Below, piece by piece: positions 31,726 to 55,646 of a stretch of DNA of 55,646 nt. The DNA is from Haloarcula sp. DT43 (lineage in GTDB: Archaea > Halobacteriota > Halobacteria > Halobacteriales > Haloarculaceae): assembly GCF_037078405.1 (NCBI RefSeq), contig NZ_JAYMGZ010000007.1, positions 1 through 55,646 of the forward strand, written 5' to 3'. How positions within the stretch are numbered: the stretch's first letter is position 1; every line of letters begins with the position of its first letter. Below the pieces are notes generated by a model, which was given only the letters and a program-made list of their open reading frames with translations, did not search any database and had not been told where the DNA came from. The position numbers and the translations under genes were made by a program.

Positions 31726-31745
31726 ACACCACCCTGCAAGTGTTC
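31726..31745 (-). repeat. Origin recognition box, inverted copy
   Basis: ACACCACCCTGCAAGTGTTC is the exact reverse complement of the consensus box plus one base. It is the only copy in this orientation and bounds the AT-rich region on the left. The box plus the adjoining G-tract are mirrored by the box and C-tract at 33510-33551. Confidence 0.9.
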
Positions 31746-31756
31746 TGGGCGTTCTC

Positions 31757-31777
31757 GGGGGAGGGGGTGGGGAGGGG
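31757..31777 (+). other. G-tract (G-quadruplex-capable G-string)
   Basis: Four G-runs of 5, 5, 4 and 4 separated by single bases A, T and A form a near-perfect intramolecular quadruplex motif. G-strings next to origin boxes are reported in haloarchaea. It sits 11 bp inward of the inverted box. Confidence 0.75.
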
Positions 31778-31799
31778 CACTTTCCCCAGAGCGAACTTA

Positions 31800-32040
31800 A
31801 ATGAACGGACACTGGTGGAGAGGAACTGCCTCTCAGTGGAGTAGATATGGGCTTAGAGCGGTGAAAAGACGAATAGATGCGGCTAGACCTGATAATAGAG
31901 CTCATCACGGTTCGGTGACTAGCAGCAATAAGTTCATATACCATAAAATATAAAAACAAAATCTAGATTGACAGTCGAGTCAAAACGGACGGGACGAAAT
32001 CACAGGACTGAAGTGGTATAACTCAGGATTAGCTGTAGCG
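31800..32040. other. AT-rich putative DNA unwinding element
   Basis: The stretch is markedly AT-richer than the rest of the window, with its richest part around 31921-31970 (CATATACCATAAAATATAAA). It has no credible ORF and is enclosed by the inverted box at 31726 and the direct boxes at 32076 and 32122. Confidence 0.7.
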
Positions 32041-32075
32041 GCCCGCTCGTGCCCGTTCTCCGGAGCGGTTCGAGA

Positions 32076-32094
32076 AACACTTGCAGGGTGGTGT
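32076..32094 (+). repeat. Origin recognition box
   Basis: AACACTTGCAGGGTGGTGT matches the consensus exactly and closes the AT-rich region on the right, in opposite orientation to the 31726 copy. Confidence 0.9.
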
Positions 32095-32121
32095 GTGACT
32101 GCACGGCGCGAAAACACTTGA

Positions 32122-32140
32122 AACACTTGCACGGTGGTCA
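32122..32140 (+). repeat. Origin recognition box in the orc1 promoter
   Basis: AACACTTGCACGGTGGTCA is a two-to-three-base variant. A half-box AACACTTG lies just before it at 32113-32120. It ends 6 bp before the orc1 TATA box, over the expected BRE, so bound Orc1 should hinder TFB/TBP. Confidence 0.85.
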
Positions 32141-32145
32141 CTGGT

Positions 32146-32153
32146 TTTATATA
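32146..32153 (+). promoter_or_regulatory. TATA box of orc1/cdc6
   Basis: TTTATATA is centred about 29 bp before the ATG at 32179, giving a leaderless or nearly leaderless mRNA. It excludes the in-frame upstream start at 32134. Confidence 0.8.
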
Positions 32154-32178
32154 CGGTCACTCGAAAGGTGGGGGTACG

Positions 32179-33507
32179 ATGGTCGACGTGAACGAGAACC
32201 CGTTCGACGGGACTGACGCGATCTTCGAACGCAAGCAGCCACTGAAGAAGGACACGTTCACGCCGGACACTATCTTCCACCGCGACGAGGAAATCGAGTT
32301 CTACATCAACGCCCTTCAGGACGTCATCGTCGGCCACGACCCGAACAACGTCTTCGTGTACGGTCCGACCGGTGTCGGGAAGACCGCCGTTACGAAGTGG
32401 GTCCGGGACAAGCTCGAAGAGAAGGCCGAGGCCGAGGACATCCCCCTCACCGTCATCGGGCCGATTAACTGCCGGAACTACCGGTCGGCGTATGCGCTGG
32501 TCAACACGCTCGTCAACGAGTTCCGTGACCCGGAGAACCAGCTCCCGGAGAGCGGCTACAGCACCGACAGCGTCTTCGAGTTCCTCTACGAGGAAATCGA
32601 AGCCGTCGGCGGGAACGTGCTTATCATCCTGGACGAAATCGACAACATCCCAGCGGACGCACGGAACGACTTCCTCTACGAACTGCCGCGGGCCGAAGCC
32701 AACGAGAACACGCCCATCACCGACGCGAAGGTCGGGCTCATCGGCATCTCGAACGACCTCAAGTTCGTCGACGTGCTGGAGCCGAAGGTGAAATCGACGC
32801 TTGGGGAGCGGGAAATCAAGTTCGGCCCGTACGACGCGACCGAACTCCGCGATATTCTGGGCTACTACGCGGACATCGCCTTCCGGGAGGACGTTCTCGG
32901 CGAAGACGTCGTCCCGCTGGCGGCGGCCTTCTCGGCGCAGGAACGCGGCGACGTTCGCCAGGGGCTCCGCATTCTCGAAAAGGCCGGGGAGTACGCGCGG
33001 ATGGAGGGGGCAGACGGCGTGACGGAGGCACACACGCGGCGAGCGACGGACACTATCGAGACCGACGAACTCCTCGATTACTTCGAACACGACCTGAGTT
33101 CACAGCAGGCGCTGACGTATCTCGCGACGACGCTGGCGCTCATCGAACCGAAACACGAGGCCTCGACGAAGCGAATCTACAACCTCTACTCCTCGATTGC
33201 GGAGTCCAGCGGCCGCCGGGTGAAATCCGAGCGCAAGATATACGAGTTCCTCGACCAGCTCTCGATGCAGGGGCTGGTCCGCTCTGCCGAGCGGAACCTC
33301 GGCCGGAAAGGGGGGCGCAAGTACATCTACGAGGTCACGGACGACCCGACGGACATCATCAACGCCGCGCTGCAGTCCTCCTACAGCGACGCCGTGCCGA
33401 GCAACGTCAACGGGATTCTCGAACACTATCTCGAGGACGAGGCGACCGAGTTCGAGGCCCCGGACACCACCGACGACGAGCAACAGAACCTCTGGCAGTT
33501 CACGTAG
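32179..33507 (+). CDS. orc1/cdc6: Orc1/Cdc6 replication initiator
   Basis: This 442-residue AAA+ protein binds the origin boxes and loads MCM. Walker A GPTGVGKTA is at 62-70, Walker B LIILDEIDN at about 149-156 and sensor 1 GISND near 190. The sensor 2 region includes GDVRQGLRILEKAG, and an initiator-specific motif insert plus a C-terminal winged helix end the protein (IYEFLDQLSMQGLVRSAERN). The N-terminus ENPFDGTDAIFERKQPL resembles one haloarchaeal Orc paralogue class. The boxes around the gene and in its promoter show that this protein and this origin belong together. Confidence 0.95.
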   Translation: MVDVNENPFDGTDAIFERKQPLKKDTFTPDTIFHRDEEIEFYINALQDVIVGHDPNNVFVYGPTGVGKTAVTKWVRDKLEEKAEAEDIPLTVIGPINCRNYRSAYALVNTLVNEFRDPENQLPESGYSTDSVFEFLYEEIEAVGGNVLIILDEIDNIPADARNDFLYELPRAEANENTPITDAKVGLIGISNDLKFVDVLEPKVKSTLGEREIKFGPYDATELRDILGYYADIAFREDVLGEDVVPLAAAFSAQERGDVRQGLRILEKAGEYARMEGADGVTEAHTRRATDTIETDELLDYFEHDLSSQQALTYLATTLALIEPKHEASTKRIYNLYSSIAESSGRRVKSERKIYEFLDQLSMQGLVRSAERNLGRKGGRKYIYEVTDDPTDIINAALQSSYSDAVPSNVNGILEHYLEDEATEFEAPDTTDDEQQNLWQFT

Positions 33508-33532
33508 CCACCCCTCCCCCGCGAACCCCGAG

Positions 33533-34155
33533 AACACTTGCACGGTGGTGTGTGTGTGTCCAGCGACGAGTGCTCCCTCGCGCGGTCCAGAACAGTTGCA
33601 GGGTGGTGTGTACCCATGAACGGTCGCAGAGACGGGGCAACAGCGGACGGTCACGCCGGGTCCACCACGTATGGCGCGGAGAACACTTGCAGACCGGTGT
33701 ACCCGTCCGGTCTCGGCGGCCGGACACCCCGCTTCGAAAACACTTGCAGGGTGGTGTCGACGCCGATTCGACGGTGAAAACGCCCAGCACGCGCGCTCGG
33801 AACACTTGCAGGGTGGTGTGAACCCCGTTCGTGAAACACTTGCAGGGCGGTGTGTGAGACACCAGCCAGCCGAGTCGCGCTGTGAGATGTCCGTAGCACG
33901 GTGATCCCGGGCGCTCTGGCCGCACGCGAACACTTGTAGGGTGGTGTCTGAACACGCGTACACCGTTCTGGGCCGACTGCAGCCGAACCCGGAACACTCG
34001 CAGGGTGGTGAGAGAACACTCGTACGGTGGTGTCCCGACCCCGGGAACGCCGGGACTCCGTGGCGGCTGTCCCGCCGGCCTGTGCAGGCAGTCCGGTCTC
34101 GGCCCCGTCGCCGTGGTCGACCCGTTCGGCCCGAAGAACACTCGCAGGGTGGTGT
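33533..34155 (+). repeat. Array of ten same-strand origin recognition boxes
   Basis: Copies start at 33533, 33591, 33682, 33739, 33801, 33835, 33929, 33993, 34015 and 34137, each 19 bp. Start-to-start distances are irregular (58, 91, 57, 62, 34, 94, 64, 22, 122). Copies at 33739 and 33801 match the consensus exactly. Variants include AACAGTTG (33591), AGACC for AGGGT (33682), GGGCGG (33835), TTGTAG (33929), and CTCG forms (33993, 34015, 34137). Intervening sequence is unrelated. No gene fits between 33508 and 34213; the open frames there are artefacts of the repeats. Confidence 0.9.
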
Positions 34156-34213
34156 TCCCCCGAAAAACCGGCCTGTAGCCCGGGTGGGGAACGGACCCGA
34201 GGGGACCGCGTCG

Positions 34214-55529: not shown

Positions 55530-55646
55530 ATTCCGGTTGATCCTGCCGGAGGCCATTGCTATCGGAGTCCGATTTAGCCATGCTAGTCGCACGAGTTTAG
55601 ACTCGTGGCATATAGCTCAGTAACACGTGGCCAAACTACCCTACAG
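55530..55646 (+). rRNA. rrs: 16S rRNA, 5' 117 bases (continues past the window edge)
   Basis: ATTCCGGTTGATCCTGCCGG is the universal archaeal 16S start. AACACGTGGCCAAACTACCC near the end of the window is also standard for haloarchaeal 16S. The middle (GCATATAGCTCAG) differs from the Haloarcula type I recall (GCGAAAAGCTCAG), so the genus cannot be fixed from these bases. The rest, and presumably tRNA-Ala, 23S and 5S, lie outside. Confidence 0.97.

Follow-up and report, generated by a model that had tools for sequence, protein, structure and literature searches.

The box-rich region of the window (the whole 55.6-kb stretch of DNA analysed here) is, judged from its sequence, the ortholog of oriC2-cdc6E-oriC2D, the second chromosomal origin of Haloarcula hispanica. 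We hold with high confidence that it represents an oriC2 with its own initiator, Cdc6E, and that the ten-box region downstream of the initiator gene, oriC2D, is a brake on this origin; by analogy with H. hispanica, the brake probably acts by soaking up the initiator. The array system is already known and was described in 2013, and the window adds another species. New here are the contrast in conservation between boxes and spacers, the invariant orientation of the boxes, their division into three classes and a half-box at the initiator promoter.

An oriC2-cdc6E-oriC2D locus in another species of Haloarcula

Thirteen copies of AACACTTGCAGGGTGGTGT are present at all positions where an earlier note on this DNA had placed them, and in the layout that it had described, with one inverted box to the left, two direct boxes before the initiator gene and ten direct boxes after it. 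The latter lie on one strand, 3' of the orc1/cdc6 gene, and span 623 bp (33533-34155; Table 1). With a matrix built from these same boxes, all 13 score 24.9-33.2 bits, compared with 11.0 bits for the best non-box site in the window and 13.7 bits for the top score in 20 first-order Markov shuffles, a gap that rules out a chance origin. A genome-wide search (3.75 Mb), which had been proposed as a check, identified 12 sites with 0-1 mismatch, all of them at the box locus. Dispersed repeats are also ruled out, because the four two-mismatch sites found elsewhere in the genome do not exceed the six obtained with a reversed-pattern control. The boxes are thus confirmed as real, far beyond chance and specific to the locus. 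No regular period was seen in the spacing of the array in the window, which is 58, 91, 57, 62, 34, 94, 64, 22 and 122 bp.

The initiator gene scores 364.8 bits with TIGR02928, for which the cut-off is 181.3, and its product contains a Cdc6 lid and a C-terminal winged helix, the nearest solved structures being Sulfolobus Cdc6-1 (2qby_A) and 2v1u. Cdc6E is about 100% identical (rounded) to the H. hispanica copy (L032, G012:C3) over residues 1-442 (E 1.2e-295). The nucleotide identity of cdc6E is 90.7%; the window belongs to a species other than H. hispanica, from which alone the experiments come. Orthologs of cdc6E are confined to Haloarcula (16 of the 146 genomes of the family, including the window's own, and 1 of 22 genera), and related copies (67-86%) are found in other families, some of them plasmid-borne.

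In H. hispanica, Wu et al. described 11 origin boxes (ORBs) in oriC2D, a 722-bp intergenic region downstream of cdc6E (PMC3936714), and the evolution of the system is the subject of a further paper (PMC4441112). In the H. hispanica locus recovered here, the intergenic region measures exactly 722 bp and contains 11 boxes, as published; in the genome from which it comes (G012), one contig opens with the first 1245 bases of the H. hispanica plasmid pHH400, at 100% identity. The window shares with this locus the initiator ortholog, the box, the pair of inverted ORBs flanking an AT-rich element upstream of cdc6E, the same-strand downstream array and the same convergent acyl-CoA dehydrogenase gene. 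Also shared is an rRNA operon about 20 kb downstream: the 16S rRNA gene of the window, on the + strand, has its start at 55530, which is 22 kb downstream, and is transcribed away from the origin, and the published H. hispanica operon lies about 20 kb from the origin. Unlike the H. hispanica locus, the window has 10 rather than 11 array boxes, in a gap of 706 rather than 722 bp between the convergent cdc6E and acyl-CoA dehydrogenase genes.

In H. hispanica, oriC2 is an active origin, as seen from a marker-frequency peak at cdc6E and from plasmid assays, and its activity depends on cdc6E (PMC3936714). Via this orthology, the earlier proposal that the window contains a replication origin is supported. 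The oriC1-cdc6A origins of haloarchaea likewise have inverted ORBs around an AT-rich element beside an orc1/cdc6 gene, but differ in box sequence and initiator; for oriC1, a G-rich inverted repeat is reported to act as an enhancer, in contrast to the restraining effect of the ORB-rich region on oriC2 (PMC3936714).

By position, the boxes fall into three classes: origin boxes, which have the tail GTGTG; array boxes, most of them with the core only; and the promoter box. Among 12 loci chosen for lower redundancy, at least four of the five tail positions matched in 21 of 25 origin boxes, compared with 21 of 77 array boxes, the arrays of Halobellus and Haloparvum being partial exceptions to the tail-less rule.

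Table 1. Features of the origin, initiator gene and downstream array in the window.
Feature	Position	Strand	Basis
Left ORB (inverted; GTGTG tail, origin class)	31726..31744	-	matrix score, tail class
G-rich stretch just inside left ORB	31757..31777	+	sequence
AT-rich element (76% A+T) lying between the inverted boxes; candidate for unwinding	31925..31974	.	composition
Right ORB, in the opposite orientation to the left one	32076..32094	+	matrix score, tail class
Composite promoter-proximal element: half-box AACACTTG (32113-32120) and full box (32122-32140)	32113..32140	+	
TATA element TTTTATATA of cdc6E, ~30 bp before ATG, leaderless-type promoter	32145..32153	+	
orc1/cdc6 initiator gene, 442 aa, ortholog of H. 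hispanica cdc6E	32179..33507	+	
oriC2D, 706-bp convergent intergenic region with array	33508..34213	+	published counterpart 722 bp, 11 ORBs
Array box 1	33533..33551	+	matrix score
Array box 2	33591..33609	+	matrix score
Array box 3, variant ...AGACCGGTGT	33682..33700	+	matrix score; same place in most Haloarcula
Array box 4	33739..33757	+	matrix score
Array box 5	33801..33819	+	matrix score
Array box 6	33835..33853	+	matrix score
Array box 7	33929..33947	+	matrix score
Array box 8	33993..34011	+	matrix score
Array box 9	34015..34033	+	matrix score
Array box 10	34137..34155	+	matrix score

A composite box at the cdc6E promoter

The box closest to cdc6E is a distinct composite element, in which a half-box precedes the full box by exactly 9 bp. 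The half-box, with 0-2 mismatches, was found exactly 9 bp upstream of the promoter box in 28 of 28 homologous loci and in none of 278 other boxes; these loci are mutually related, so that a Fisher p-value cannot be taken at face value, and the meaningful part of the comparison is the contrast within loci between the promoter box and the other boxes. The TATA motif begins at a constant sixth or seventh base past the promoter box, and this offset does not change with the distance to the start codon, which shifts from about 56 to 70 bp. The arrangement suggests that this composite element next to the TATA motif serves as an operator for autoregulation, with Cdc6E most likely repressing its own gene. 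A limited literature search, which covered few subscription journals and is therefore weak evidence, returned no report of the composite element or of Orc1 autoregulation in archaea. The composite box makes such autoregulation directly testable, and we find the promoter element more interesting than the array itself.

The other initiators in the same genome, with 41-43% protein identity, have a related promoter geometry. Promoters of the cdc6K family contain CGGA half-sites with a period of 9 bp and then GGTGG adjoining the TATA element (26 of 29 by pattern), and those of a third cdc6 family contain half-sites of the CACTTG-CAGATG type (27 of 29 by pattern); both patterns were written after seeing the same sequences, which makes these rates descriptive, and the counts leave out L066 and L117, one locus per family, which have no usable upstream sequence. 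Self-similarity at a lag of 9 is clear in the cdc6E and cdc6K promoters, the self-match in the latter being 7.9 of 9 as compared with at most 4.4 at other lags. The same test gave no distinctive peak in the third family (5.46 at lag 9 versus 5.61 at lag 4), which thus provides weak support only. The cdc6E and cdc6K families share this layout of a putative operator although their half-sites differ in sequence; in the third family it is weaker.

Combining the promoter with the box classes, one tentative reading of haloarchaeal Orc1/Cdc6 origins, to which we give slightly less than an even chance, is that the tandem half-site operator with its 9-bp repeat at the TATA element would mediate self-repression, the tailed boxes would open the origin and the core-only boxes would serve as decoys that restrain it, in a copy control like that of iteron plasmids but with initiators of the eukaryotic type.

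A few additional features were observed near other cdc6 genes. Upstream of a cdc6K-like gene (L049; G000:C3:191659-192753, minus strand), CGGACA half-sites recur at 9-bp intervals ahead of GGTGG and TTTTAT, and many further TGTCCGC(A/T)GT boxes lie upstream of this promoter. Another cdc6 gene (L047; G000:C8:29019-30110) is preceded by TTCACTTGA-AACAGATGC-AGAGGTGG directly before TTTTATATA, an arrangement conserved in its family. On contig G000:C8, two cdc6-like genes are flanked on both sides by short inverted repeats, CTAACCAAC...GTTGGTTAG (L047 1099/1131 and 3668/3700; L053 1316/1348 and 2635/2669).

Proposed restraint of oriC2 by the downstream array

The function proposed for the array builds on the genetics of H. 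hispanica, where deletion of oriC2D was obtained only when oriC2 was also gone, alone or together with cdc6E (PMC3936714). As reported in the same source, oriC2D by itself has no origin activity; its presence in trans or in cis results in less oriC2 plasmid, and two boxes have an intermediate effect. Wu et al. inferred that oriC2D "likely" titrates Cdc6E and likened it to datA (PMC3936714). The datA-like titration put forward in the earlier note thus appears essentially right, being the published explanation of the orthologous oriC2D, derived from deletion and copy-number genetics.

By this analogy, Cdc6E would open the origin by binding to the inverted pair of tailed boxes on either side of the AT-rich element, and the ten boxes of oriC2D would bind Cdc6E without initiation, leaving less free or active initiator at oriC2. 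With an autoregulatory operator at the promoter, the array, the origin and the promoter would compete for a single, self-limited pool of initiator. We infer both that Cdc6E binding is the mechanism of oriC2D and that the species of the window behaves like H. hispanica.

In E. coli, datA lies far from oriC and is bound by DnaA. The window array shares with it a cluster of initiator boxes that would lower initiator availability, but adjoins the initiator gene and belongs to an Orc1/Cdc6 initiator; by analogy, it works like datA but is not a datA. The trait that defines the likeness, a box cluster that lowers initiation without having origin activity, is known from the H. hispanica ortholog. Another parallel is provided by the iteron plasmid P1 (incA/incC with RepA). 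Like iteron plasmids and chromids (P1; ori2-inc/RctB of Vibrio, PMC6090056), the window has the same initiator sites at the origin, at the promoter of the initiator gene and in a separate cluster; in those systems the extra cluster restrains copy number and causes incompatibility, and the array would be its counterpart here. Unlike the plasmid Rep-type initiators (RepA, RctB), the initiator of the window is an AAA+ protein of the Orc1/Cdc6 type with an unrelated fold; with regard to possible autorepression and handcuffing, the window shows a composite box abutting the promoter.

If Cdc6E does repress its own gene, renewed synthesis would offset part of the titration, and bridging between the array and the origin could then be the real brake. 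Renewed synthesis is a known difficulty for plain titration in iteron replicons, where handcuffing is invoked. In a handcuffing or looping model, Cdc6E bound to the array would bridge to Cdc6E bound at the origin, in cis or on sister copies, and block its opening, with titration being secondary. The trans effect and the dose dependence of oriC2D fit bridging as well as titration, and RctB of Vibrio chromosome 2, which is autorepressed and has remote clusters of sites, is described as acting by both titration and handcuffing (PMC6090056). The composite box, which suggests autorepression, also weakens pure titration. However, Cdc6E is not known to pair DNA sites, and the intervals within the array of the window, from 22 to 122 bp, show no evident regularity. 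We therefore consider handcuffing rather unlikely, although it is the chief rival, and keep titration as our main reading.

The earlier note had also suggested that the array loads extra Orc1. As a positive element, it would load additional Orc1/MCM or otherwise aid origin firing, which would agree with the origin-like cores of its boxes. The H. hispanica genetics contradict this: oriC2D alone is without replication activity, and adding it lowers oriC2 activity and cuts plasmid copy number (PMC3936714). With the GTGTG tail also absent from most array boxes, we regard a positive role as very improbable. The further option in the note, that the array sets the timing of firing, finds no support here.

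Iteron arrays can serve partition, and the position of the array between convergent genes could suit a centromere-like or a transcription-termination element rather than a replication brake. Yet the same boxes are also found inverted at the origin, and oriC2D of H. hispanica is not needed for chromosome segregation because it could be deleted once oriC2 had been removed (PMC3936714); a role in partition or termination is equally hard to credit.

Conservation of the array boxes

When the window is compared with 12 further loci from Haloarcula, identity is 94-97% in the array boxes, 51-56% in the array spacers and 65-74% at the third codon positions of cdc6E; these figures use the box columns of the window only and are unaffected by the recognition of boxes with a matrix. 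In a comparison of all pairs, the values are 95% for boxes and 69% for spacers, where boxes were recognized by the window-built matrix and any that had decayed past recognition would count as spacer. Single boxes keep both their array position and their variant letters (box 3, AGACC, in most Haloarcula). Because the boxes are conserved while the spacers have diverged, selection acts on individual boxes and not on the region as a whole. The value of this contrast is comparative, in that it supports a box-level function of the Haloarcula array. The idea that the array consists of functionless leftovers of tandem duplication, a process that does enlarge arrays in relatives (in Halobellus, L011, by tandem units of 47 bp), has virtually no chance of being correct, refuted as it is by the contrast between boxes (~96%) and spacers (~53%) and by variants kept at the same array position across species.

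The downstream boxes are all on the strand of the gene in 28 of 28 loci, an orientation that is invariant across genera. Where the orthologous gene is present in Haloarcula, the array has 8-12 boxes; less closely related loci have 1-10, among them a copy on a Haloarcula plasmid with 5. This natural variation (1-12 across relatives) makes dose effects testable. The array, which the earlier note had called unusual, is so only in part: the other Haloarcula genomes with the orthologous gene have kept it, it was already described, and a weaker form is found in plasmid and chromosomal relatives from other genera.

Some of the relatives differ in the arrangement of their arrays. In Halobellus inordinatus (L011), eight array boxes 3' of a cdc6E-like gene are repeated in tandem at regular steps of about 47 bp, and their flanks are nearly identical, which looks like a recent tandem duplication or expansion. 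In a plasmid of Natrinema gelatinilyticum (L013), two of four downstream boxes are located about 1.7 kb farther off than in L014, and these distances suggest an insertion inside the array. Finally, cdc6E-type origin layouts are near-identical on a contig of chromosome size (3.66 Mb; L042, G345:C1) and a 104-kb plasmid (L041), a likeness that is consistent with plasmid integration.
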